From the NCBI GenBank assembly GCA_000247545.1, contig CP003316.1:1769233-1833232 (forward strand): a stretch of DNA of 64,000 nt. The letters are read 5' to 3'. Of the stretch, positions 3,170 through 41,477 are shown in pieces. The notes beneath the pieces were generated by a model, which saw only the letters and a list, made by a program, of their open reading frames with translations, was not told the origin of the DNA and made no database searches. Within the stretch, counting starts at the first letter, position 1, and each line of letters opens with the position of its first letter. The position numbers and the translations under genes were made by a program. This stretch comes from Pyrobaculum oguniense TE7 (GTDB lineage Archaea > Thermoproteota > Thermoprotei > Thermoproteales > Thermoproteaceae).

Positions 3170-3238
3170 GTACGCCCTCCAGCGCCCTCCTCACGGCCTC
3201 CCGGTGAAGGGGCGTCTGCCAAGCCACGCGCCTCCTCC
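3170..3238 (-). pseudogene. C-terminal stub of the PaREP-associated ATPase
   Basis: On the minus strand one frame reads RRVAWQTPLHREAVRRALEG, identical in pattern to the last 20 residues of the ATPases at 7261-8265 and 34116-35120. Nothing else of the ATPase remains; the sequence to its left (minus-strand upstream) is a different gene. This marks a recombination junction. Confidence 0.75.
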
Positions 3239-4347: not shown

Positions 4348-5356
4348 GTGGAGAGGATAAGGCTGCCGCTGGCCCCTAGCCTAGAAGTGAAGTTTGCGGA
4401 CAGGGAGATGGCCCTCAAACGTATGGAGGAGTGGGCGGAGAGGGGCATGGCGAGGGTCGAGGTTGTGTTCGGGCCGGAGGGCTGTGGGAAGACGGCTTGG
4501 CTCCGGCAGTCGGCCGTGTTGCTTAGGGAGCTTGGGTATCACGTGATATATGTCGACCCTCTGCGTAAATACTTCGAGGCGTATACCGACGTGAAGGAAG
4601 TGGCGAGGAGGCTGGCCGAGGCCGCGGCTGGGGCGCTTGTGGAGGCGAGGATTTGGCTGGCGACGTTAGCCATCGACTTGACCAACCTACTCATCAAGAG
4701 GATGAAGAAGAAGGTGGCGGTTCTAGCAGACGACGTATTTCAAGCAATAGGGCTGGGGGAGGCCGCTAAGTACGTCAAGGCGTTGCTTGGAGTAATCGAG
4801 TACCCGCCTGCTAGCTACGAGAGGGTAATCGCAGTAGTGGCCACAAGCGAAGGCGTCACCAGGCGGGAGATAGGGAGACATAGGTGGGCATACCTCACAC
4901 CCATGTGGAGCATGCCTAGGGAGGGGTTCCGCCAGCTCTACGACCAGATACCCGGCGATAAGCCTCCCTTCGAGGAGGTCTGGAAGATCACCGGCGGCAA
5001 CCCCAAGCTACTGGGCGAGCTGTATAAGGCCAGGTGGGACGTGGAGGAGGTCTTGGCTAGGCTTGTGGACGAGAAGAAAATCGACGTGTTCGTAGGCGGG
5101 CTTGGGGAGAGGGAGAAAGAGCTACTGAGGCAAGCCGTAGAAGACCCAGACTCGCTGATTACGAGGGGGGATCCCCCTAATGGAGAAGCTGGTAGATCAA
5201 AACCTAATAGTGGACACGATCCCCCGGCGGGACCCCCGCTTCTGGGCCGGGGAGATGCCGCCCGAGAAGGACTTAGAGCTTGGGATCGGGAGGCGCGTGG
5301 CTTGGCAGACGCCGCTCCACAGAGAGGCGGTAAGGAGGGCTCTTGAGGGGGCGTAG
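4348..5356 (+). pseudogene. AAA-type archaeal ATPase, single frameshift in a G6 run
   Basis: Paralogue of the intact ATPases at 7261 and 34116: Walker A GPEGCGKT near residue 42, Walker B VAVLADD near 125, TGGNP near 217. The frame is intact to about residue 271, then slips at GAGGGGGGAT (5164-5171). Removing one G gives the normal tail (LVDQNLIV, RRDPRFWAGE, GIGRRVAWQTPLHREAVRRA) ending TAG 5354-5356. Without correction the protein would be 332 residues with a scrambled tail. PaREP1 follows after 42 bp with its own TATA box. It may be a real mutation, a slippage site or a sequencing error in the homopolymer. Confidence 0.8.
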
Positions 5357-5398
5357 GCTTCGGCGCATCAGCTTTTAAACGAGTTGACCTACGTGGCC

Positions 5399-5947
5399 GT
5401 GGAGGCTCTCGAAAAGCCGCTGCCGAAGCCCACCGCTGAGGACTACGCCGCGGCACGGCTTCTGGAGGCCCTCGTGGAGGCCAGGCTTGCTCTTGAATTT
5501 CTGCAGAGGGGCCTCGTGAGGAACGCCGCGGGGAAGGCCTTCCAGTCCTGGAGGGCTTACCTCGCCGCACTGCTGAGGCTTGAGCTGGATAAGCTGTTGC
5601 AGACGGCAAAGACGGAAGAGGAGAGGAGGTGGCTTATGGAGAGGGCCGTCCCCAGGGTTCCCACGACGAGGATGGTGAGGCTGTCGCAGATGCTGGAGGA
5701 GGTGGGCCATCAGGGAATACAGTCTGTTACTAGCATGGCGCTTGATTTACACGACTATCAATACAATAGGCCGGATCCGGACATGGCCCTTTCGAAATTC
5801 CGCACTAGGGAGGAGGCCGCGGCGGCCGTGGTGGGACTGGTGAGGGAGGTTGCGAGACGCGCCGACTCGCTCAGACAAAGGGTCAAGTGGACCACGGAGC
5901 TAGAAGAGGCGCTGGACGTCTTGAAGGAGGGGCTGAAAGGCGTGTGA
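5399..5947 (+). CDS. PaREP1 family protein
   Basis: 182 residues, mostly helical: KPLPKPTAEDYAAARLLEAL near the N-terminus, AGKAFQSWRAYLAALLRLELDKLL in the middle, the family hallmark LHDYQYN near residue 120, and a WTTELEEAL tail. A longer frame opens at TTG 5384, but I prefer GTG 5399: the TTTTAAAC box at 5373-5380 is about 23 bp upstream, and the paralogue at 38786 starts at the equivalent ATG. PaREP1 (Pfam PF05942, from memory) has no assigned activity; its helical fold and H-x-Y motif resemble HEPN proteins, which is inference. It lies just downstream of an ATPase gene, as in two other loci here. Confidence 0.85.
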   Translation: MEALEKPLPKPTAEDYAAARLLEALVEARLALEFLQRGLVRNAAGKAFQSWRAYLAALLRLELDKLLQTAKTEEERRWLMERAVPRVPTTRMVRLSQMLEEVGHQGIQSVTSMALDLHDYQYNRPDPDMALSKFRTREEAAAAVVGLVREVARRADSLRQRVKWTTELEEALDVLKEGLKGV

Positions 5948-6913: not shown

Positions 6914-7260
6914 TGAGCCAGGAAGTGTGAGCCGCGGCGGTGCCACGCCGACGGCGCCGGCGCAGTCCACGGCGGTTTTCGAACACCGCAGACGCCCACA
7001 GCAGAGCGCCTAGAGTGGTCAGTCCGACACGGCGTTAGCCCCAAGCGCCGTCGAGAAGTACGCCGGGATCCCCTACGCCTTGGGACATGGACAAGCTCCT
7101 CAAGTTGCAACCAGCTCCTCGGCCCCAGGCCCGACAGGAGCGGGGAAATAATCGTGGGGCTCAAATACGCCGAACCGCCAAGTGGAATCCGCGGCAGGTC
7201 CATACGTGCCGCCCCGCTGTGAGCGGGGTAGCACATAAAAACAAATGCGCAGAACACTAC
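6914..7260. other. GC-rich spacer and promoter of the ATPase gene
   Basis: No gene seen. CATAAAAACAAA at about 7233-7244 is a plausible TATA box for GTG 7261. Confidence 0.45.
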
Positions 7261-8265
7261 GTGAAGAGAATCAAGCTACCGCTCGCGTCTAATCTCGACG
7301 TTGAGTTCGCTGACAGAGACCTCGCCCTCAAAAAAGTGGAGGAGTGGGCCGAGAGGGGCATTGTGAAGGTCCAAGTCGTGTTCGGACCGGAGGGCTGTGG
7401 GAAGACGGCGTGGCTACGCCAAAGCGCAGTGCTTCTTAAGGAGCTTGGCTTCCACGTGATATATGTCGACCCTCTGCGTAAATACTTCGAGGCGTATACA
7501 GACGTGAAGGAGGTGGCGAGGAGGCTGGCAGAAGCCGCCGCCGAGACGCTGGGTGTCGCTGAGGTGAAGCTGGCGTCCCTTGTCATCGACCTCGCAGTGG
7601 AGTTGTTGAAAAAGAAGAGGAGAAAGGTAGCCATATTAGCCGACGACGTATTTCAAGCAATAGGGCTGGGGGAGGCGGCGAAGTACGTCAAAGCCCTCCT
7701 TGGCATAATTGAATACCCTCCCGCCAGCTACGAGCGGGTAATAGCAGTAGTGGCCACAAGCGAGGGAATTACAAGAAGAGAAATTGGGCGGCACAGATGG
7801 GCAGATCTAACGCCGATGTGGAACATGCCAAAAGACGGCTTTAAACTGCTGTACGACCAGATACCCGGCGAGAAGCCTCCCTTTGAGGAGGCGTGGCGGG
7901 TCACGGGGGGCAATCCCAAATTGTTGGGGGAGCTCTACGAGGCGAGGTGGGATGTCGAAAGCGTAGTTGAGAGATTGGTGGAGAAGAAGGAGCTGGCGCC
8001 CAGCTTCACGGCGAGGTGGCGCGGCTGGCTTGAAAAGGCGGTGGAAGACCCAGATGCGCTCTGGAGCCCAGACGCGCCGAGAGAGCTTATAGACGAACTC
8101 GTCGCGAAAAACCTCATCGCGTACTTCCTCTCCAGAAGAGACCCCCGCTTCTGGGCGGGAGAACCCCCGCCGGAGAGGGATTCAGAGCTTGGAATCGGGA
8201 GGCGCGTCGCATGGCAGACGCCCCTCCACAGGGAGGCCGTGAGAAGAGCTCTTGAGGAGACATAG
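7261..8265 (+). CDS. AAA-type archaeal ATPase (PaREP-associated)
   Basis: 334 residues. Walker A GPEGCGKT (42-49), Walker B AILADD (125-129), sensor-like VVATSEG (163-169), and the archaeal-ATPase TGGNP motif (215-219) before a C-terminal helical domain ending AWQTPLHREAVRRALE. A longer frame opens at 7087, but its extra N-terminus is low-complexity; GTG 7261 matches the paralogues and has a TATA box 22-27 bp upstream. A predicted cytoplasmic P-loop NTPase of the STAND/archaeal ATPase type; partner and substrate unknown. Unlike the copies at 4348 and 34116, no PaREP1 gene follows: a flippase gene does. Confidence 0.85.
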   Translation: MKRIKLPLASNLDVEFADRDLALKKVEEWAERGIVKVQVVFGPEGCGKTAWLRQSAVLLKELGFHVIYVDPLRKYFEAYTDVKEVARRLAEAAAETLGVAEVKLASLVIDLAVELLKKKRRKVAILADDVFQAIGLGEAAKYVKALLGIIEYPPASYERVIAVVATSEGITRREIGRHRWADLTPMWNMPKDGFKLLYDQIPGEKPPFEEAWRVTGGNPKLLGELYEARWDVESVVERLVEKKELAPSFTARWRGWLEKAVEDPDALWSPDAPRELIDELVAKNLIAYFLSRRDPRFWAGEPPPERDSELGIGRRVAWQTPLHREAVRRALEET

Positions 8266-13245: not shown

Positions 13246-13737
13246 GTGCTTGAGAACCTTTCCCCAAGCCCACGGCAGAGAGATGCGCCGCTGCTAGGCT
13301 CCTCGAAGCCTTAGCCGAGGTCAGCTTAGCCCTTAGGTTTCTGGAAGAGAGCCTCGTCAGAAACGCGGCTGGGAAGGCTTTCCAAGCGTGGAGGGCCTAT
13401 CTCGCCGTATTGCTGAGGCTGGAGCTGGACAAGCTATTGCAGAAAGCCAAGACAGAAGAGATGGCTTATGGAGAAGGCAGTGCCGAGGGTATCCACCACG
13501 AAGGTGGTTAAGCTTTCGCAGATGTTAGAGGATGTGGGCTATGCCGGGCTTTGGCAATCCACCGTTCTTGCCCTAGAACTACACGACTACCACCACCACG
13601 GCCTTGACCCATACATAGCGCTGTCCAAGTTCCGGGATACGGACGAGGTCGCCATAGCGGTGGTGGGGCTAGTAAGAGAAATTGCTAAGAGCAACGCACC
13701 CGTTTGTCAGACCAGCTGGGCCACAGCGGCCTAGCCT
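13246..13737 (+). pseudogene. PaREP1 relic with several frameshifts
   Basis: PaREP1 signatures are spread over three frames: VLEN at the start, KPTAE.CAAARLLEALAEV, AGKAFQAWRAYLAVLLRLELDKLL, then after a ~7-bp deletion at KTEE the frame changes to WLMEKAVPRVSTTKVVKL and LELHDYHHHGLDP. The WTTELEEAL tail is lost. No adjacent ATPase gene. Confidence 0.8.
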
Positions 13738-29402: not shown

Positions 29403-29951
29403 TCACCCGCCTTTCAACCCCTCCTTCAAGACGCCCAGCGCCTCCTCAAGCTCCGTGGTCCACTTGACCCTTTGTCTGAGCGAGTCGGCGCGTCTCGCGA
29501 CCTCCCTCACCAGTCCCACCACTGCCGCCGCGGCCTCCTCCCTCGTGCGGAATTTCGAGAGGGCCATGTCCGGATCAGGCCCATTGTATTGATAGTCGTG
29601 TAAATCAAGCGCCATGCTAGTAACAAACTGTATTCCCTGATGGCCCACCTCCTCCAGCATCTGCGACAGCCTCACCATCCTTGTCGTAGGCACCCTCGGC
29701 ACTGCCCTCTCGACGAGCCACTTCCTCTCCTCGTCTGTTTTGGCTATCTGGGTAAGTTTGTCTAGCTCTAGTCTAAGAAGGGAGGCTAACAATGCCCGCC
29801 AAGCCTGGAAGGCCTTCCCCGCGGCGTTTCTCACGAGGCCCCTCTGCAGAAATTCAAGAGCAAGCCTAGCCTCTACGAGGGCTTCCAACAGCCTAGCCGC
29901 GGCGTAGTCCTCAGAAGTAGGCTTGGGGAGGGGCTTTTCAAGAACTTCCAC
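29403..29951 (-). CDS. PaREP1 family protein
   Basis: 182 residues, nearly identical to the copy at 5399 (KPLPKPTSEDYAAARLL, LLASLLRLELDKL, LDLHDYQYNGPDP, WTTELEEALG). GTG 29951 chosen over TTG 29966 because TTTTAAAC lies 23-25 bp upstream. Its usual ATPase partner upstream is reduced to a 20-residue stub (29994-30059). Function as for the family: unknown, helical, HEPN-like by inference. Confidence 0.85.
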   Translation of the reverse strand: MEVLEKPLPKPTSEDYAAARLLEALVEARLALEFLQRGLVRNAAGKAFQAWRALLASLLRLELDKLTQIAKTDEERKWLVERAVPRVPTTRMVRLSQMLEEVGHQGIQFVTSMALDLHDYQYNGPDPDMALSKFRTREEAAAAVVGLVREVARRADSLRQRVKWTTELEEALGVLKEGLKGG

Positions 29952-29993
29952 GTCCACGTATGTCAACTAGTTTAAAAGCTGATGCGCCGTAGC

Positions 29994-30059
29994 CTACGCC
30001 CCCTCCAGCGCCTTCCTCACGGCCTCTCTGTGCAACGGCGTCTGCCAAGCCGCTCGTCG
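29994..30059 (-). pseudogene. C-terminal stub of the PaREP-associated ATPase
   Basis: Minus strand reads AAWQTPLHREAVRKALEGA and TAG, the exact tail of the ATPase family. The rest of the ATPase is gone, replaced by the gene at 30111. The spacer to PaREP1 is the same as at 5357-5398. Confidence 0.8.
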
Positions 30060-30110
30060 GCCGGTCCTCGGCCTCCTTGAATGGCCCTAAGCCCCTCACA
30101 GCGCCGGCCG

Positions 30111-31136
30111 TCAGCTCCTCCTGGTTAGCTCTTGTTTTAACGCGTCGCCTAGCGCGTCGACGTAGTCAGCCCATATCAAGTATCCTTTACTCTCCAGCGC
30201 CTTCCGCACGGCCTCCCCTGAGGCGTATCTGAAGGCGCGGCCTAGGGCCTCCCTCAGCGCCTCTACGGCCGCCTCGTGGGCTTTAGCCGGCGGCGAGGCC
30301 CTTCTGGGGTAGAGCAGCATCAGCTCCCCCATGCGGCTTCGCCTCACATCCACCTCGTAGCTCTTCTTGAGGTATTCCTTAACGGCGGCGCGCGCTTCCT
30401 TGAGTGCTCTCCTCAAGCCCGGGGCCCCGGCCAGCCTCCTGTACTCCTCGGGGGCTAGGGCGTATAGGTCCTTCGCGATTTGCCGGGGCCACGGGTTGTA
30501 CCACAAGGGTATCGCGTTGGGGAGGTCCAGGGCGTAGTTGCGCGAGGCCTTTACCCAAGCCACGAGGTCGCTCAGCGCGTATTGCCTCACCCCCGCGTAG
30601 GTGGCCGCCTTGAGGTGGGTGGCCGCGGCTTGTCTGTACAGCTCTCTTGCCAGCTGGCGGAGGCAGTCGGCGGCCTCCTCCGACGCGGCTAGCTGGTAGA
30701 AGCTGTCCACCGGCTCCTCGCCTATGTAGCCCCTGGGCTCCGCGATGACTGCGGCCGGCTCGGCGGTTATGCCCAAGGCCCTGGGCACCTCCTCGTCCGA
30801 GTATATGTCTACGTCCACGCCTAGCTCGGCTGGTCCCAGCGCGGCCTCAATGCTGAGGGTCACGCCGCGGGGCAAATTGGGGGCCTCCTTGTCTAGCTCC
30901 TCGGCGAGGGCCTTCACGGCGCCTTCCGCCTCGTCGAGCGCGTTGGGTATATCCACCTTGACCTCTCTGCACTTCCCCACGGCCGGGTGCCTGCGCCAGA
31001 GGCAAGCCTTTTGGCTCTTCACCTCTCCAACCTTGTCAATCGCTATGACTGTGCCTATCCCCAAGTAGAGAGCCGCCTTCCTGGCGCTTCTCGGCTTGAG
31101 GCCTGCCCGCGGCCTGAAGAGCTTGATTATCAACAT
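30111..31136 (-). CDS. uncharacterised protein
   Basis: 341 residues, Ala/Leu/Glu-rich, no signal peptide or TM. Two parts: an N-terminal mixed region with CLWRRHPAVGKCREVKVDIP and VTLSIEAALGPAELGVDVDIYSD, and a helical C-terminal region from about 160 (ASEEAADCLRQLARELYRQAAAT). A TATATTAATT-type box about 25-30 bp before ATG 31136 supports the start, although it overlaps the nuclease-like ORF by 100 bp. Later starts (e.g. at KSQKACLW) are possible. I do not recognise the family. Confidence 0.55.
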   Translation of the reverse strand: MLIIKLFRPRAGLKPRSARKAALYLGIGTVIAIDKVGEVKSQKACLWRRHPAVGKCREVKVDIPNALDEAEGAVKALAEELDKEAPNLPRGVTLSIEAALGPAELGVDVDIYSDEEVPRALGITAEPAAVIAEPRGYIGEEPVDSFYQLAASEEAADCLRQLARELYRQAAATHLKAATYAGVRQYALSDLVAWVKASRNYALDLPNAIPLWYNPWPRQIAKDLYALAPEEYRRLAGAPGLRRALKEARAAVKEYLKKSYEVDVRRSRMGELMLLYPRRASPPAKAHEAAVEALREALGRAFRYASGEAVRKALESKGYLIWADYVDALGDALKQELTRRS

Positions 31137-31701
31137 ATCCCTTGTAGATCTGATCGGCGCAATTAATATCTATACTGTCACGGTGCGTCCCCCCGCGTCT
31201 AGTCTCAGAGACGTGTTGAGGGATATGTGAGGTATCTCCATCGATTGTCATAACCCATTTCAACTCCCTTGGTGAAGCTACTTCGCGAAGAACGGCGTTG
31301 ACCTCATTTAATATGCCCCTGCGTATCTTCTCCAGCGCTGTTGGGACGGCCTCTCGTGGAATTATCACGAAAACGTAAAAGTCGTCTGGAGCTTCTGGTC
31401 TGGTTTGGAGAATTTTCGCTATAGTAGAAACAATTTTTTGAATTAAAGATCGGCCCACTGTGGCGCCGGAGCTCACACAAAGCTTCGCCTCGATAAGCAC
31501 GTGGCGTTTCTCCGTGCGTATATAGAGGTCGGTCCAGGGCTTTAAGCCGGCGAATTTCTTCTCCTCAGTGCATATAAAGTCTGAAACTGCACCTAGTTTT
31601 TCAATGAATGTCTTAATTCTATCGCGATTTTTCTCGTAAAACTCTTTGTGATTTTTATCGAATTGAGCCAAGCAGTTCACAGCTTGGTCTACTACGGACA
31701 T
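31036..31701 (-). CDS. PD-(D/E)xK nuclease-like protein, C-terminus uncertain
   Basis: 221 residues. Residues 55-75 (WTDLYIRTEKRHVLIEAKL) fit the nuclease core: Asp58, Glu71, Lys73 with a strand between. Flanking helices (KEFYEKNRDRIKTFIEKLG; LIQKIVSTIAKILQ) fit the fold. After residue ~165 the composition changes and the last 33 residues overlap the next gene in another frame, so the true C-terminus may be lost. Possibly a restriction- or repair-type nuclease. Confidence 0.55.
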   Translation of the reverse strand: MSVVDQAVNCLAQFDKNHKEFYEKNRDRIKTFIEKLGAVSDFICTEEKKFAGLKPWTDLYIRTEKRHVLIEAKLCVSSGATVGRSLIQKIVSTIAKILQTRPEAPDDFYVFVIIPREAVPTALEKIRRGILNEVNAVLREVASPRELKWVMTIDGDTSHIPQHVSETRRGGTHRDSIDINCADQIYKGYVDNQALQAAGRPQAEKRQEGGSLLGDRHSHSD

Positions 31702-31927
31702 ATATCGCCTTGCGAACCCGGCGTCATGGCCTCGCCCTTGTGCGCTTCAAGCGCCTCCACGCGCTCATTGAGCTCGATTTTCCCTATCTCTTTTCGTTTC
31801 ATGGGCAATTGCGTATGGTGCGCCAAGGTTGACCTCTGGCCTCCGCTAACGGCCACAGCGATTGTGCAAGGCGCTTGAACCACCTCGGCTGTCGTTGAGT
31901 ACTTGAAACACGATGGCAAATCCACGT

Positions 31928-32287
31928 TTACGGCTCAACTAATTTTAATTTGTATCTCCTGGGGGTGTTTATCCACTGTAGGCCGAGCGCCACCGCCTTT
32001 TCTTCATCTATTTCAACTCCCTTGGCGCGGGCTATGGCCATGCCTATTGCCTTTGCTAAGAGGCGGAGGGGCGTGGTGAGGGCGAGGATTTTCTCGGCAA
32101 CTGTCTTTAGGGCTTGGGCGAGGGCTTGCGACTTTATCCTCCCGCCCCTCCTTAGGTATAGGATGGAGGCGTCTACCAGTGCTCTGGCGGCGGGGTCCAG
32201 TCTATGCCAAACCCCTCTGCGCAACGCGCGGCTTTTAAGCGCCTTAAGCGTCAAAAGCGTAGGCACAAACCCCGCCGCCAAGAGCAT
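31928..32287 (-). CDS. uncharacterised small protein
   Basis: 119 residues from ATG 32287, chosen because a TTTAAAAATTTTT box lies about 24 bp upstream; the frame itself opens further back at 32437 with an unlikely N-terminus. LLAAGFVPTLLTLKALKSRAL is mildly hydrophobic, then SILYLRRGGRIKSQALAQALKTVAEKIL and a basic tail ending YKLKLVEP. Not recognised. Confidence 0.5.
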   Translation of the reverse strand: MLLAAGFVPTLLTLKALKSRALRRGVWHRLDPAARALVDASILYLRRGGRIKSQALAQALKTVAEKILALTTPLRLLAKAIGMAIARAKGVEIDEEKAVALGLQWINTPRRYKLKLVEP

Positions 32288-33527
32288 GTCTAGAAAAAGC
32301 GAGGCGTTTAAAAATTTTTGCAGCGTCTTTGCTGGCTGTCTGGCGTACAGCCCCTCCCGCCGGCGGCCACCTTCAGCTCTCAGCAACTCGGCGTTCTGCT
32401 TCTGCCCAGGGGCCTCGATGATCTGTGTTGTGGCCACGTCTCGACGGCGTCGGTGGCTGTCTTGCGTCGACCCAAAAGAATCCGTCGTCGCGTCCTCTGG
32501 CAGTCGCCGATGTGCTATGCGTGGAGGAGTTCGGCGCAGTTGAGGTGCTGGACGGCACTGCGCTGGGGGATGCTGGACCTCGGCGCCGGCCCGCGGCGGG
32601 GGGCTTTGTTTTTAGACGGCCCAATATGGGGGCCTTTTTTGGCGCTTCGCACTGCGGTCTCTGCTGAGTCTTATTCGGCGTGGGTCAGCGCTGTGGTCTT
32701 GGGCGGCTTCCGGTGGTTGCGCCGCGGCGGTGGGCGGGGCTTCTCGTGGGCTGCGGGGGCTGTGCATGCCTGTCTGCGGCGCGGTGGGCTTGGTGTGGGT
32801 TGGTTGGCTGAGGCTTTGGCTGTTTTTGCTGGTGGTGGAGGTGCGTGGGGGTGCTGTGAGGATGCCTTGATCCGTAGCTGGGCCCTCGGCAGGTCTGGGG
32901 CTTTTGTTGGTGGCAGCGGCGTCGTGCTTGGGCTTGTTCCTGAAGCCGTGGTGTTTTTTGTGAGGGGTTTGCTGAGATCGCCTTGGAGGGGTCTGCGTGC
33001 TGCGGGGTGTGGGTAAGCGCCGTCGTAGGTACATCGTTTTGCTGCCTTGGGGTTGGGGCTACGGTTTGTGTGGATGGAGGGTTGGTGTCTAGTGCCCTTC
33101 TTGGGGTTGTGTGGAAAGTGCTTGGGGTGATCGGCGGAGATGGGGTGGTGGGGGCTAGGCGTGGGTTGTGGGTGGTTGGGGCGGGCTGTGGCGTATGGTG
33201 CCGGCTCCTGGGGCGGCGGTGGTGGAGAGATTCATTAGGGGCGTTTACGCCGGACGCTCTGCGCAAGGCGGCGAGCGCTTTGGGAGAGCTGTTCTTGACA
33301 GGTTAGATTTTTGACGGCTCCGGGTGGGGAGAGTGGTTGGCAGTTTTGCAGTGTCCCTCGGCGGCGTGGTCTAAGGGGGTCTCGGGTATGTTTCTTTATG
33401 GGTGGTTGCTTAGCGGTTTGACGGCTGTTTGTGGGTCGTGTGCTGGGGCGTAGATGCCGAGGGGTTCCGCTGTCGTTTGCGCCGTCCTTGTGGGCGTCGT
33501 CGCTGAGCTGGTTTTGGTGCCTGCTCT
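32288..33527. other. G+T-rich (top strand) tract without a credible gene
   Basis: From about 32640 to 33480 the top strand is dominated by G and T (GTGGGTTGGTTGGCTGAGG-type runs). Long frames exist on both strands, but they encode low-complexity Gly/Val/Trp/Arg or Pro/Thr/His/Gln sequence, as expected of skewed non-coding DNA. No start/promoter pair or domain recognised. Confidence 0.5.
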
Positions 33528-34070
33528 TTACTTTAGCTGCTCTTTCAGAGCTCTCAGCGCCTCCTCCAGCTCTGTGGTCCATTTTACCCTAGCCTTCAGC
33601 GCCTCGGCCCGCCTCGTCAGCTCTGCGACTAGCAGGACTACGTCTTTCGCCGCCTCTGCCCTAGTGCGGTACATGCTGACGGCGAGGTCTGGGTCGGGGC
33701 CGTTGTACTGGTACTCGTGTAGATTAAGTGCCTTATCAGTCCACGGCGATATACCGGTGTGCCCAATCTCCTCCAGCAGTTGGGAAAGGGTCTTCATCCT
33801 CGTGGTCGGGATCCTGGGGACGGCCCTCTCCATAAGCCACCTCTTCTCCTCTTCTGTCTTTGCCGCTTGTAACAACTTGTCCAGCTCAAGCCTCAGCAGT
33901 GCGGCTAACAACGCCTTCCACGCCTGGAAAGCCTTACCCGCGGCGTTTCTCACGAGGCCCCTCTCCAGAAATTCAAGAGCGAGCCTAGCCTCGACGAGGG
34001 CCTCAAGGAGCCTAGCCGCGGCGTAGTCCTCGGCGGTGGGCTTAGGGAGGGGCTTTTCGAGGATCTCCAC
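33528..34070 (-). CDS. PaREP1 family protein (paired with intact ATPase)
   Basis: 180 residues: KPLPKPTAEDYAAARLL, AWKALLAALLRLELDKLLQ, ALNLHEYQYNGPDPD and WTTELEEALRALKEQ. GTG 34070 preferred over TTG 34085 for the same TATA spacing as in the other copies. Downstream of the ATPase 34116-35120 on the same strand with 45 bp between; this is the one module in the window with both genes open. Two-component ATPase plus HEPN-like helical protein, role unknown. Confidence 0.85.
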   Translation of the reverse strand: MEILEKPLPKPTAEDYAAARLLEALVEARLALEFLERGLVRNAAGKAFQAWKALLAALLRLELDKLLQAAKTEEEKRWLMERAVPRIPTTRMKTLSQLLEEIGHTGISPWTDKALNLHEYQYNGPDPDLAVSMYRTRAEAAKDVVLLVAELTRRAEALKARVKWTTELEEALRALKEQLK

Positions 34071-34115
34071 GTCCACGTATGTCAACTAGTTTAAAAGCTA
34101 CTACGTTGAAACCCG

Positions 34116-35120
34116 CTAGGCGCCCTCTAGGGCCTTTCTTACCGCCTCCCGGTGGAGGGGGGTCTGCCAGGCGATATCTTTACCTATGCCGAGCTCGGGA
34201 TCCCTCTCTGGCGGTTCTTCGCCTATCCAAAAGCGGGGGTCTCTCTCGTATATGTTGTATACGACGAGGTTTCTCGCGATCAACTCGTCTATTAGCTCCC
34301 TCGGCGCGTCTGGGCTCCAGAGGGCGTCGGGGTCCTCCACCGCCTTCTCAAGCCAGTGACGCCATCTGGCAACGAAGTCCGGCGTTAGCTCTTTACGCCG
34401 CATAAGCCTCCTCAGCACCTCCTCCACATCCCACTTCGCCTCGTAGAGCTCGCTCAGCAGGTGGGGATTGCCCCCCGTCACGCGCCATACCTCCTCGAAG
34501 GGGGGCTTATCGCCGGGTATCTGGTCGTAGAGTTTCTTAAACCCCTCTTTCGGCAGATTCCACATGGGGAGAAGATCCGCCCACCGATGCCTCCCGATCT
34601 CCCGCCTGGTGACGCCTTCGCTCGTCGCCACGACGGCGACTATGGCGTCTACGCTTCTTGGCGGGTATTCAATGAGGCCGAGGAGGGCTTTGACGTACTT
34701 CGCCGCCTCCCCCAGCCCTATTGCTTGGAACACGTCGTCGGCGAGGACGGCCACCCTCCTCTTCATCCTCTCGATGAGGAGCTTTGTGAGGTCGATGGCG
34801 AGGGTGGCGAGCCACGCCTCCGCATCTCCCAGAACGCCCGCCGCGGCCTCCGCCAGCCTCCTCGCCACCTCCTTCACGTCGGTATACGCCTCGAAGTACC
34901 TGTGCAGAGGGTCGACGTATATTACGTGAAACCCCAGCTCCCTAAGCAACACGGCAGACTGCCTAAGCCACGCCGTCTTGCCGCAACCCTCCGGCCCGAA
35001 CACGACTTTGGGAAGTCTTGTGCTCCTCTCCGCCCACTCCTCCATCTTCTTAAGCGCCAATTCCCTGTCTACGAACTCCACCTCTAGGCCGGGGGTTAGT
35101 GATAGCTTGATCCTCTTCAC
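34116..35120 (-). CDS. AAA-type archaeal ATPase (PaREP-associated)
   Basis: 334 residues. Walker A GPEGCGKT (42-49), Walker B VAVLADD (123-129), VVATSEG, RHRW, TGGNP (215-219), tail AWQTPLHREAVRKALE. GTG 35120 with GTATTTAAAG about 24 bp upstream. Co-directional with the PaREP1 gene that follows. The pairing repeats at 4348-5947 and, with the ATPase deleted, at 29403-30059, which argues that the two proteins work together. Target unknown. Confidence 0.87.
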   Translation of the reverse strand: MKRIKLSLTPGLEVEFVDRELALKKMEEWAERSTRLPKVVFGPEGCGKTAWLRQSAVLLRELGFHVIYVDPLHRYFEAYTDVKEVARRLAEAAAGVLGDAEAWLATLAIDLTKLLIERMKRRVAVLADDVFQAIGLGEAAKYVKALLGLIEYPPRSVDAIVAVVATSEGVTRREIGRHRWADLLPMWNLPKEGFKKLYDQIPGDKPPFEEVWRVTGGNPHLLSELYEAKWDVEEVLRRLMRRKELTPDFVARWRHWLEKAVEDPDALWSPDAPRELIDELIARNLVVYNIYERDPRFWIGEEPPERDPELGIGKDIAWQTPLHREAVRKALEGA

Positions 35121-35360: not shown

Positions 35361-35686
35361 TTAAGCGCGCGTCCTCGGCGCTGCTTTTAACGCGTCTGAT
35401 GGCTTGAGGTTGTGGTTTAGCAAGTACTTCGCCGCTTGTTTGTACTCCTCCTCGCCCAGCTCAATTATGGAGATATACGGCACTATGGCTGTGTCTATGA
35501 GGTCGTTGTTTTATACGGGATTCCGTATTTCTTCTTTGAGGCGTACAACAATTCGTCGAGGACAAGTACGTCGGTGTATGGCTTGTATCTGTCAGATATG
35601 TAGAAGTTCTCGTACATGGTCCTAGTGTTGGGGTCCGCCACCGTGTTGAGGTGTATGAGGAGCGGCGAGTCTGTGAAGACTTTCAC
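35361..35686 (-). pseudogene. vapC: VapC-type PIN toxin, frameshifted and truncated
   Basis: First frame: MKVFTDSPLLIHLNTVAD (PIN N-terminal Asp strand), DVLVLDELLYASKKKYGI. At about 35510 the frame shifts and continues NDLIDTAIVPYISIIELGEEEY, AAKYLLNHNLKPSDAL, then diverges and stops before the final PIN Asp motif. So at least one frameshift plus loss of the C-terminus; ribonuclease activity is unlikely. Start overlaps the vapB stop by 4 bp. Confidence 0.75.
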
Positions 35687-35952
35687 TCGAACTCCTCTTC
35701 GATGGAGGTTTTGGCTAGGTCGCCGGGTCTGGGCTCCTTCCTTGTTGGGATGCCGGCAAGCTCCTCGGCGTGAGCTCTCAGAATCTCCCTAAGCTTGTCC
35801 GCGTCTACACTCCTCTTGGCGGGTCTGATCACTATGACGTCGCTGACCTCGGCTATCACCTCGTCGCCCTCGTCGATGCCCAATGCCTCGCGGATCTGCT
35901 TTGGCAAGACAATACGGCCTCTTTCCCCAACCCTCAACCTCAACGTGCCCAT
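35683..35952 (-). CDS. vapB: VapB-type AbrB/MazE antitoxin
   Basis: 89 residues. Swapped-hairpin AbrB domain: LRLRVGERGRIVLPKQIREALGI, GDEVIAEVSDVIVIRP; C-terminal charged tail for toxin binding. ATG 35952 with GTTTAAATACC about 24 bp upstream. Intact, while the overlapping VapC is broken. Would bind its own promoter in intact systems. Confidence 0.85.
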   Translation of the reverse strand: MGTLRLRVGERGRIVLPKQIREALGIDEGDEVIAEVSDVIVIRPAKRSVDADKLREILRAHAEELAGIPTRKEPRPGDLAKTSIEEEFE

Positions 35953-37066: not shown

Positions 37067-37474
37067 TTAGGGATCGGGGAGGTGCGCATTGATCTTTTCC
37101 GCCAACTCTAGGATCCTTCTGTAAAGCCTCTTCCTGAGGACCTCCTCGACCTTTGCCGTGTCCAGCGAGACGTAGCCGTGGACCACGACGTTTCTGAAGC
37201 CCACCACGGAGCGGTAGAGCGTGAGGTCTTGGGGGTCCAGCACCCCGTGCCTTCGTAGCGCCTCGCCTGCCTCCATATATGTCTGCGCCGGCTCCCCCAG
37301 CAGGGAGGCCGCCCTCTGCGCCATATCGATTAGGGCCTGTGCTTGTAGTTGCAGCGCGTGGAGTATTCTCATCAAGTCGTCTCAGTTGGACAAGTCGTAG
37401 CCCCTCTCAACTACTCCGTCTAGATACGCGGACAGCTTGGCGATAAACTCGAGGAGGGCCCTCACCTTCGCCAT
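37067..37474 (-). pseudogene. hepT: HepT-like HEPN toxin with an in-frame TGA
   Basis: 136-codon frame from ATG 37474: VRALLEFIAKLSAYLDGVVE, YDLSN, then TGA at 37384-37382 (codon 31), then DDLMRILHALQLQAQALIDMA and GFRNVVVHGYVSLD, which carries the RNxxxH-x-Y RNase motif. Otherwise intact. An internal ATG would give a 102-residue protein lacking the first helix. Overlaps the mntA end by 13 bp, the usual MNT-HEPN arrangement. Confidence 0.75.
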
Positions 37475-37866
37475 ATCGCGTCGAGCGCTGTTTCTAACAG
37501 CTTGAGCTTCCTTGAGTCGATCTGCTGGTCTTGACACACGTTGAAATACCTATAGACCTCGTCCCAGTCCGCGACGTAGAGCGGCACGCCCTTCAGTGCC
37601 TCGAGGACCAAGGGGCAAGGCGTCCTCTCGGTCACAACAACCAAGTCTATGTAGTCCTCCGGCAACGATAGGCGTTTGACCAACTCGGCCAACAGCTCCC
37701 CCAGAGCCTCGAGGCCTATCTCAGAGATCGCTATGTCTAAGTCGTTTCCGAAACCCCTCGACGCTGTTGAGCCGAAGAGGAAGGCGAATTTGACGTACTT
37801 CCCCCAGGGGAACGACTTGAGCGCGTCTAGCGACACCTTGAAGCTCCGCCCCACCACTACTTCCAC
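37462..37866 (-). CDS. mntA: MntA-type minimal nucleotidyltransferase antitoxin
   Basis: 134 residues. Nucleotidyltransferase core FGSTASRGFGNDLDIAI (Gly32-Ser33 and Asp42/Asp44, GSx(8)DxD), then DYIDLVVVTE and PCPLVLEALKGVPLYVADWDEVYRY. MntA proteins neutralise HepT by AMP transfer. GTG 37866 with CTTTAATATCG about 20-25 bp upstream. Catalytic residues are kept although the partner HepT has a stop. Confidence 0.85.
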   Translation of the reverse strand: MEVVVGRSFKVSLDALKSFPWGKYVKFAFLFGSTASRGFGNDLDIAISEIGLEALGELLAELVKRLSLPEDYIDLVVVTERTPCPLVLEALKGVPLYVADWDEVYRYFNVCQDQQIDSRKLKLLETALDAIWRR

Positions 37867-38237: not shown

Positions 38238-38786
38238 TCACCGGCCTCTGAGCCCCTCCTTCAAGACGCCCAGCGCCTCCTCCAGCTCTGTGGTCCACTT
38301 GACCCTTTGGCTGAGCGCCTCGGCCCGCTTGGCAATCTCGGCGACTAGAAGTATGACGTCTTTCGCCGCTTCGTCTCTCGTCTGGTACTTCGAGAGGGCC
38401 ATGTCGGGGTCGGGGCCGTGGTATTGATAGTCGTGTAGATCAAGCGCCGTGCTAGTAACAAACGCTATTCCTTGATGGCCCACCTCCTCCAGCATCTGCG
38501 ACAGCCTTACCATCCTTGTCGTAGGCACCCTCGGCACTGCCCTCTCGACGAGCCACCTCCTCTCCTCTTCCGTCTTTGCCCTGTGTAACAGCTTATCCAG
38601 CTCAAGCCTCAGCAGTGCGGCGAGGTAAGCCCTCCAGGACTGGAAGGCCTTCCCCGCGGCGTTCCTCACGAGGCCCCTCTGCAGAAATTCAAGAGCGAGC
38701 CTGGCCTCCACGAGGGCCTCCAGAAGCCTAGCCGCGGCGTACTCCTCCGCCGTGGGCTTGGGGAGGGGCTTTTGTAGCGCCTCCAT
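38238..38786 (-). CDS. PaREP1 family protein (solo)
   Basis: 182 residues from a true ATG at 38786, with TTTTTAAAAAG about 25 bp upstream; this copy fixes the start of the other PaREP1 genes. KPLPKPTAEEYAAARLL, YLAALLRLELDKLL, LDLHDYQYHGPDPD, WTTELEEALGVL. No ATPase gene or stub adjoins it. Confidence 0.88.
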   Translation of the reverse strand: MEALQKPLPKPTAEEYAAARLLEALVEARLALEFLQRGLVRNAAGKAFQSWRAYLAALLRLELDKLLHRAKTEEERRWLVERAVPRVPTTRMVRLSQMLEEVGHQGIAFVTSTALDLHDYQYHGPDPDMALSKYQTRDEAAKDVILLVAEIAKRAEALSQRVKWTTELEEALGVLKEGLRGR

Positions 38787-38964
38787 GCTAATATGTACTA
38801 CGCCTTTTTAAAAACAAGTACGCCGCGTCGACGCGACGTTTAGGGCTGAGTTTCGTGTGGTGGGGTCTCTCTGGGCTTTGTTGTGTTTCGACGCTTGAGT
38901 CTTGCGGCGCCTGGTGGGTGCTTGAGGCTTGGCCATGTGGGCCCCGTGTCCGGCTTCGCGGCGT

Positions 38965-39657
38965 TTATGGGGGTTCTCCCGGTGTTATGATCTTGATGCC
39001 TATTCTCTCGGCCATGGCCTTGACGTAGGCTGGGTTTCTGTCGTTTATGTACGGCGTTATTACCAGAGTGGCACTTATGGGCTTGCCGGTGGTCTTGGCG
39101 TAGAGCTCGGCCTTGCGCTTGACAGTGATCAAGTCGCCTCTTTTTAAGCCCGACGTTATCTCCACGGCTATCGTGACGCCATCTCTGACCACAACGTCTA
39201 GCTCCACTTCGCTGGGGTAGCCGTAGACGTAGCCATCCCCGTCGTAGTAGAGCCACTTCTCCACGGCGTAGCCAGCCTCCCGCAGAAGCTCCCTAACCCC
39301 CTCTCTAAAAGCATCCTCGCTTAACACCCCCCACCTTGCCCCAAGCGCGTCGAGCTTGGTGGAGATTTGCCTGATCTCCCTCCTTAGCTCCTCTTGTGCT
39401 CTCTTTACCTCTTCTATATCCTGTCTCAATGCTCTGGTGGTCTCTTCTATATCTTGTTTCAAGGCCCTTTTTGCTTCTTCTATGTCTTGTTTCAGGGCTT
39501 TTCTCGTCTCTTCGACGTCTTGTTTCGTGGCTAGGTTTTGCCAGGGCAGTGTCCTGGCCAGCGCCTCGTAGATTATCTCGGGTTTGGAGACTATGACCTC
39601 TACTAGTATGTCCGGGTTCTCCAGCAGGACCCTCTTTATCTCCTCGGCTAGGGACAC
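38965..39657 (-). CDS. DUF3782-type coiled-coil protein with endonuclease-like C-domain
   Basis: 230 residues. Residues 45-88 are four tandem 11-residue repeats of the form KQDIEExxRAL, continuing into a coiled coil to about 105. The C-terminal domain (110-225) has SEVELDVVVRDGVTIAVEITS with Asp154 and Glu166, and KRKAELYAKTTGK, a restriction-endonuclease-like pattern in which the ExK lysine is not obvious. GTG 39657 with GGTTTATAACC about 25 bp upstream. Family proteins are common in thermophilic archaea with no proven role; probable DNA-binding or nuclease-fold protein. Confidence 0.8.
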   Translation of the reverse strand: MSLAEEIKRVLLENPDILVEVIVSKPEIIYEALARTLPWQNLATKQDVEETRKALKQDIEEAKRALKQDIEETTRALRQDIEEVKRAQEELRREIRQISTKLDALGARWGVLSEDAFREGVRELLREAGYAVEKWLYYDGDGYVYGYPSEVELDVVVRDGVTIAVEITSGLKRGDLITVKRKAELYAKTTGKPISATLVITPYINDRNPAYVKAMAERIGIKIITPGEPP

Positions 39658-39851
39658 TGCACTGCCGGCGTGCGTGGTTATAAACCTTGTCTCGCTGTCC
39701 CTATACGCTTCTGCACCTGATAGGCGTCTTCCTCGTCTTGAAGCCAGGCGTCTCGCGCCGAGGCTTTAGGCGCTTGTCTATGAGCCGGAAATCAGCCAGA
39801 ACCGTGCGTCATAGTAGAAAAACTTAAGGCAAAAAAGAGTGGATGTACGCC

Positions 39852-40076
39852 ATGGAGGTGAAAGTTACTAGGAATTACCAAGTGACCATCCCCGCCGAGT
39901 ATAGGAGGAGGCTTGGAATAAAGGTAGGCGACGTCGTGACAATGTTGCTGGAGGGCGATAGGATAGTGATAGTCCCAGCCAAGAAGCGGAGGGTGATATT
40001 TAGGGCGGGCCGCCCCGTGGCTGTGGAGGAGCTTGAGAAGGCCGTCGAGTCGGCCCTCGATAAGAGTCTTAGTTGA
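39852..40076 (+). CDS. vapB: VapB-type AbrB/MazE antitoxin
   Basis: 74 residues from ATG 39852; ATG 39843 in the same frame is possible, but MEVKVTRNYQVTIPAEYRRRLGI is the normal family start and the ACTTAAGG box fits better. AbrB hairpins: VTRNYQVTIPAEYRRRLGIKVGD, VTMLLEGDRIVIVPA. Overlaps vapC. Intact. Confidence 0.82.
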   Translation: MEVKVTRNYQVTIPAEYRRRLGIKVGDVVTMLLEGDRIVIVPAKKRRVIFRAGRPVAVEELEKAVESALDKSLS

Positions 40077-40565: not shown

Positions 40566-41015
40566 TTAGCCGCCCTCCCCAACGGGAGCACAACGGAGGG
40601 TTGGTAGCCTACACAGGCTGTTGCGGAGCCCGCCGTCGCATAGGCGCGCCGGCCTTTTGGAGGCCGCTACTGCAACTGCCTCCTCATTCCTCCAGCCCCT
40701 CAGCAACCGCTCTATGTCCTCCTTCGTGGCCTCGTCGTCGGGGTACCGGCTGAAGATGCCCTCTTTATCTGGGCCGTTGTACTGGCATTCGTGGAGGTTC
40801 AGGGCTGTGTCGGTGTACATCAACACGGCGTCCCCGTATTTCCTCGCCAGTATCTGGGCCGCTTGCCTCACGCGGGTAGACGGCATGAAGGCCACCACCC
40901 AGTCAGCCTCGCTCAGCCTCTTGCCGCCGCGTAGCTTCCTCACGCCGACAAACGCCGTCCTTAATGTCTCCTTCTCCTTCAGCGCGAGGGCGGCTAAAAG
41001 GGCTTCCACGCCCAT
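40566..41015 (-). CDS. PaREP1/PaREP8-type protein, divergent and possibly truncated
   Basis: 149 residues. Aligns with the middle of PaREP1: VEALLAALALKEKETL, WVVAFMPSTRVRQAAQILARKYG, TALNLHECQYNGPDKEG, RYPDDEATKEDIERLL. The N-terminal helices of PaREP1 are absent and the tail after RGWRNEEAV looks foreign. The hallmark reads H-E-C rather than H-x-Y. Role unknown. Confidence 0.6.
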   Translation of the reverse strand: MGVEALLAALALKEKETLRTAFVGVRKLRGGKRLSEADWVVAFMPSTRVRQAAQILARKYGDAVLMYTDTALNLHECQYNGPDKEGIFSRYPDDEATKEDIERLLRGWRNEEAVAVAASKRPARLCDGGLRNSLCRLPTLRCAPVGEGG

Positions 41016-41477
41016 ATATGTTTACCAAAAAGCTGGAGCGTCGTAACCCGCGTACCCGCGTGTATCGAGCTTGAGAGTGTTGGTAGCGGGGCTCAAACCT
41101 TTTAGACCCGTGACGGCTGGGCATGAACTTTCAAGTTTTAAGATCTGGGGGGCGGAAGGGTTGTCCATATCACTTGGGGTAAACGCGCCGACTGGTACTT
41201 GGCCTCTAACCCTGCCCCCTTGCCTTTTTGACAACATTGTGCATGAGCTCGGTATCCGCCCTATACGCCTCCTTGTGCTGGGGCTGAGAACTCAAACAGC
41301 TCCTCGCGGGGCATATAGATGCGGTTAGTCATGGCCCCGGCACTGTGCTTCAGGGTAGCGGAAGGCAGCTAGCACGGAGTAAGTAGATTCTTGATTCCTG
41401 CCTAATTGCGAAGTTCTTTGCATATCTCGTGAACGTCATGGGTAAGCTTGTAGCTACGCATTTGACAAGTGGAGGGG
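41016..41477. other. no supported gene
   Basis: Frames on both strands (e.g. 41071-41328 plus) carry no motif I recognise. Confidence 0.4.

Follow-up and report, generated by a model that had tools for sequence, protein, structure and literature searches.

Linked genes for a STAND-like ATPase and the HEPN-fold protein PaREP1 in Pyrobaculum oguniense and related archaea

ATPase and PaREP1 genes in the window

The window, by which we mean the whole stretch of 64,000 nucleotides of Pyrobaculum oguniense TE7 that was analyzed, carries members of two gene families, a PF01637 ATPase and PaREP1 (PF05942), as neighbors, as solitary genes and as relics. The features discussed here are as follows.

34116..35120, minus strand: intact ATPase, 334 amino acids, GTG start, PF01637 (ATPase_2) at 254 bits
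33528..34085, minus strand: intact PaREP1, partner of the ATPase at 34116..35120, PF05942 at 109 bits, predicted HEPN fold
34086..34115, minus strand: spacer of the intact pair, carrying the TATA-like CTTTTAAA
4348..5353, plus strand: frameshifted ATPase, a single frameshift lying between 5166 and 5177
5384..5947, plus strand: PaREP1 after the frameshifted ATPase, PF05942
29994..30050, minus strand: ATPase C-terminal stub, the last 18 ATPase codons AWQTPLHREAVRKALEGA and the stop
29403..29966, minus strand: intact PaREP1 beside the ATPase stub, PF05942, dN/dS about 0.1 against 5384-5947
7261..8265, plus strand: ATPase without a directly adjoining PaREP1, its start at 7261 lying inside ORF 7087-8265
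38238..38786, minus strand: PaREP1 lacking an ATPase neighbor, with a PDDEXK_10 gene 178 bp upstream
38965..39657, minus strand: PDDEXK_10 (formerly DUF1626)/DUF3782 gene, 178 bp upstream of the solo PaREP1 at 38238-38786
3175..3235, minus strand: relic, ATPase C-terminal fragment only, sequence match
13254..13656, plus strand: relic, PaREP1 split over two frames, sequence match
about 40713..41018, minus strand: diverged PaREP1 match, 37 bits, absent from the list in an earlier note on this DNA

The earlier note had described an intact, a frameshifted and a stub pair, a solo ATPase at 7261, a solo PaREP1 at 38238 and relics, and all of these lie at or very near the places it gave. The family assignments are secure, with PF05942 scores of 96 to 109 bits for four PaREP1 copies against a curated cutoff of 24.4, and PF01637 scores of 254 to 256 bits for the ATPases. 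The intact PaREP1 starts at a TTG at 34085 or, more likely, at a GTG at 34070, and the TATA-like CTTTTAAA stands about 23 nucleotides ahead of that GTG. The nearest PaREP1 to the ATPase at 7261 lies about 1.3 kb upstream. In the frameshifted ATPase, the frame 4348-5346 is broken between 5166 and 5177 and homology picks up in the next frame, continuing to 5353. The break adjoins a G6/C5 run, and the genome contigs derive from pyrosequencing (PMC3558965), so the decay of this copy is not certain, a homopolymer sequencing error being possible. The whole genome holds 43 PF05942 and 17 PF01637 matches; seven ATPase genes are near the window type, and one more of them is broken besides the frameshifted copy in the window.

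Several other genes lie among these copies. The PaREP1-DUF1626 neighborhood seen at 38238-39657 has already been listed (PMC3710099). MNT (Polbeta) and HepT-like toxin-antitoxin genes lie at 37067-37866, where the HepT appears frameshifted, its N terminus seemingly in another frame (ORF 37382-37537). Small AbrB-like genes were assigned by eye at 35495-35952 and 39843-40076, and the first is followed by a short ORF that, also by eye, resembles a truncated PIN protein; together these genes suggest a stretch rich in toxin-antitoxin systems. Positions 31928-32437 encode a 169-amino-acid protein without a Pfam match, and proteins like it, with which the window protein was grouped by eye, lie near the ATPase in nine loci, in different orders and mostly upstream on the same strand. 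ATPase genes of the AAA_15/AAA_21 type, one of them Pfam scanned, recur no more than 1.2 kb away from the PF01637 ATPase, at nine loci (L084, L121, L125, L127, L129, L196, L199, L215 and L234).

Predicted structures of the two proteins

The AlphaFold2 model of PaREP1 is all-helical (pLDDT 93), and its top PDB match in Foldseek is 2q00 (probability 1.00, TM by target 0.66), followed by convincing matches to the HEPN domain of sacsin, AF0298, TT1696 and AbiV, with weak E values of 0.02 and above. A sequence-only search for a solved relative gave nothing significant, and 2q00 surfaced through fold comparison only. Among 75 aligned PaREP1 proteins (66 of class A, defined as the window type at 55% identity or more, and 9 of class B), the histidine of the LHxYQYN motif is invariant, whereas the arginine that the HEPN Rx4-6H motif places 4 to 6 residues ahead of it has no conserved counterpart. 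By its predicted structure, PaREP1 is a HEPN-fold protein, as the earlier note had surmised from its helices and LHxYQYN motif, so the fold does not refute the note's reading. That part is not new, since PaREP1/8 was assigned to HEPN in 2009 (PMC2701414) and again in 2013 with PDB 2q00 cited (PMC3710099), where the missing arginine of Rx4-6H and the conserved histidine are also described.

In the ATPase model (pLDDT 92), a P-loop NTPase core is followed by helices, and the chain finishes in a short part that resembles a winged helix. Its PDB matches mix AAA+ and STAND proteins; the best TM scores among the matches listed belong to NLRs and Avs3 (0.44 to 0.47), those of DnaA/ORC being lower, and the sequence profile weakly touches an NB-ARC protein. 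The intact ATPase carries a Walker A motif GPEGCGKT, a Walker B motif VAVLADD, GGNP and the C-terminal AWQTPLHREAV. Across the alignment GPEGCGK is invariant and the VAVLADD-type strand is conserved, giving the Walker A and Walker B (hhhhDD/DE) signature of STAND NTPases. GGNP, which may correspond to the GxP motif of STAND NTPases, is also conserved; helices and then short strands are predicted past the NTPase core, and the C-terminal motif AWQTPLHREAVRRAL is nearly invariant. No Pfam repeat domain that could serve as C-terminal sensor repeats was found in the ATPase, which stops about 50 residues past the helical region. Judged from its model, the PF01637 ATPase best resembles STAND/NLR NTPases.

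Solitary fragments bearing AWQTPLHREAV recur, at 3175-3235 and 29994-30050 in the window and elsewhere at L250:2357-2388 and L251:2225-2256. Solo matches to the C-terminal motif outnumber solo P-loop matches by 3 to 0 in this genome and by about 6 to 1 in 19 genomes, counts too small to make the C-terminal stubs an element of a special kind.

Linkage across genomes, gene order and selection

In P. oguniense by itself the evidence for linkage is weak: of 12 PF01637 genes, 3 have a PF05942 match no more than 700 bp away, against 0.5 expected (p=0.015). Across genomes it is strong. Nineteen Thermoproteaceae genomes were compared; in the assembled ones used, 20 of 73 class A PaREP1 genes have the ATPase no more than 600 bp away, and random placement gave a mean of 0.31 and a maximum of 4 in 2000 trials. 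In the sister family, represented by genomes assigned from named records to Vulcanisaeta and Caldivirga, 16 of 38 are linked. The co-occurrence that the earlier note had read from one genome therefore extends to other genera, far above chance (20/73, 16/38 and the PIN control below), and physical linkage spans Pyrobaculum, Thermoproteus, Vulcanisaeta and Caldivirga. Of the PaREP1 neighbors that could be assigned to a family, the ATPase occurs most often. At the level of whole genomes in the order, 24 have both families, 4 PaREP1 only, 8 the ATPase only and 9 neither, a distribution (p=0.008) that ignores phylogeny and completeness. Scans of genome contigs also found the two genes adjacent in Pyrolobus, 117 bp apart, and about 20 bp apart on a short Calditenuaceae contig, where a binning error is possible. 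Class B PaREP1, RHH-fused PaREP1 and HEPN PF05168 genes likewise occur beside the PF01637 ATPase; given the abundance of HEPN genes, the looser distances of these other HEPN types are weaker evidence. Both families also have many solitary members, and ATPase arrays without PaREP1 occur in the g3 genomes. The open-access literature, an incomplete sample, yielded no paper that connects PaREP1 with the ATPase; the linkage test across genomes is what is new here.

The variable islands in which the two families expand are the same, and some of the linkage could thus stem from common hotspots. In its full form this is the main rival to a joint function: two lineage-expanded families would pile up in recombination-prone islands, their adjacency arising from shared hotspots and tandem duplication. 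That both families are multicopy and patchy fits such hitchhiking. Island residence was controlled for with the PIN toxin genes of five genomes, a single control family and not a full background. In these genomes class A PaREP1 lies within 150 bp of 14 of 40 ATPases, while the PIN genes, often island residents too, are beside the ATPase in 0 of 60 cases and beside PaREP1 in 1 to 2 of 60; even the larger count (2/60) leaves them hardly linked to PaREP1. The standing of the ATPase as commonest identifiable neighbor also speaks against hitchhiking, as do the short codirectional gaps found repeatedly across two families and in several orders. Many gaps measure 5 to 120 bp, mostly between codirectional genes, and alternating tandem PaREP1/ATPase arrays occur in four genomes (G006, G014, G069 and G073).

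The earlier note had also proposed a constant gene order and a TATA-bearing spacer. Both are local or generic features and do not mark the module. In Thermoproteaceae, PaREP1 precedes the ATPase in 10 cases, follows it in 9 and is opposite in 2, and both orders also occur in the sister family, which rules out a fixed operon order. A TATA-like box lies about 25 nucleotides ahead of nearly every class A PaREP1, solo or paired, so the motif in the spacer is no mark of the pair and was rejected as a module signature. The mixture of both orders with convergent and divergent pairs is what hitchhiking would give, and so is the history of adjacency on the PaREP1 tree, where it was gained and lost repeatedly, requiring 13 changes, at least 5 of them forced by well-supported branches. 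The same recurrence also counts in favor of the partnership.

The PaREP1 genes are maintained. The copy beside the stub differs from that at 5384-5947 with dN 0.046 and dS 0.485 (dN/dS about 0.1), and the solo PaREP1 gives a dN/dS of about 0.19 against the same reference; both are under purifying selection, which is strong on the stub-side copy and rules out ongoing decay there. Constraint on PaREP1 without an intact neighboring ATPase implies either that an ATPase copy acts in trans or that PaREP1 has an ATPase-independent function. Partner-specific codivergence within genomes was not found (p=0.32). Free permutation had given r=0.80, a value that none of the permutations reached, and this is a species effect, so cognate coevolution was rejected. 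The retention of PaREP1 and the missing codivergence both suit hitchhiking, which, with the control set against it, we regard as a serious but rather unlikely account.

The same results bear on a toxin-antitoxin pair, in which PaREP1 would be the toxin, a HEPN RNase, and the ATPase would be its cognate antitoxin, taking the place that MNT has beside other HEPN proteins. There is precedent in HEPN toxins encoded next to small partners (PMC2701414), the two genes are adjacent and often codirectional, and the window also includes an MNT/HepT pair. An obligate pair is nevertheless hard to reconcile with an ATPase that erodes while PaREP1, beside truncated, frameshifted or absent ATPases, stays intact and constrained. 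Most PaREP1 genes have no ATPase next to them, and a TATA-like box of their own precedes nearly all of these; in the tree 45 of 65 stand alone, which is not the obligate adjacency of a type II toxin-antitoxin system, and cognate codivergence is absent. We consider this explanation improbable.

Most doubtful of all is a mobile element, in which the ATPase would drive its own copying in a Tns-like manner with PaREP1 as cargo or accessory. The copies are dispersed, the name and history are those of repetitive families, and paREP elements have been linked with regions of gain and loss (PMC3558965). Against this, the DNA similarity of the 74% copies ends at the coding ends and that of the 85% copy begins within the ATPase 3' end; these limits differ, so no fixed element boundary is seen. 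The copies revealed neither a transposase or integrase nor, in a nonsystematic search, any terminal repeats. Such an element is very unlikely.

A possible regulator and effector

The reading that we tentatively prefer, with a confidence just short of even, is a loose, recurrent partnership of interchangeable members, in which a STAND ATPase would act as regulator or sensor and the HEPN-fold PaREP1 as an RNA-acting effector. The small PF01637 ATPase, without sensor repeats or a fused effector, would perceive or regulate, and PaREP1 may bind or cleave RNA under its control, the two amounting in effect to a split STAND-HEPN protein. The partners are probably interchangeable and able to act in trans, so that loss of a neighboring ATPase leaves PaREP1 under selection. 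The pair would serve in conflict with invaders or in a stress response; from family membership and context only, a part in conflict is a plausible inference. A bolder form, which we think unlikely, makes the pair an immune module of hyperthermophilic archaea, a split STAND-HEPN system whose interchangeable pool of sensor ATPases would control a pool of PaREP1 HEPN effectors and which repeated duplication and re-pairing in islands would diversify. In PADLOC, PaREP1 had no match and the ATPase had weak P-loop matches and no strong one; no relatives of either protein were confirmed in viral contigs. These negative results weigh against the preferred reading, as do the missing HEPN arginine, the many solitary members of both families and the lack of codivergence within genomes.

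Known systems share parts of this arrangement. HEPN-T (PaREP1/8; PMC3710099, PMC2701414; PDB 2q00) has the same Pfam family, fold, conserved histidine, nonconserved arginine and lineage-specific expansion in Thermoproteales, and the neighbors named for it in the relevant passages of PMC3710099 are PaREP tandem arrays, MNT and a DUF1626 REase, the PF01637 ATPase not being among them. The fused bacterial HEPN-STAND proteins listed there likewise combine HEPN with a STAND NTPase, whereas here the genes are separate, may come in either order, and encode an ATPase that lacks TPR or sensor repeats. Avs/NLR-type STAND immune ATPases (PDB 8dgc and 7jlv) have a similar predicted NTPase fold (the TM scores of 0.44 to 0.47 being by query length); unlike them, our ATPase has 334 amino acids and no sensor repeats, fused effector or recognized ligand. 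MNT-HEPN (HepT) pairs also join a small HEPN protein to a nucleotide-binding neighbor, but the partner here is a P-loop ATPase and not a nucleotidyltransferase, the order is variable and the HEPN gene is kept without its partner.

Few families of the Thermoproteales are as expanded as PaREP1, and a recurrent, specific ATPase partner offers a handle on the possible control of PaREP1-type HEPN proteins. The partnership would tie PaREP1 to STAND immune proteins and would turn the old puzzle of a "repetitive family" into a testable two-protein hypothesis.
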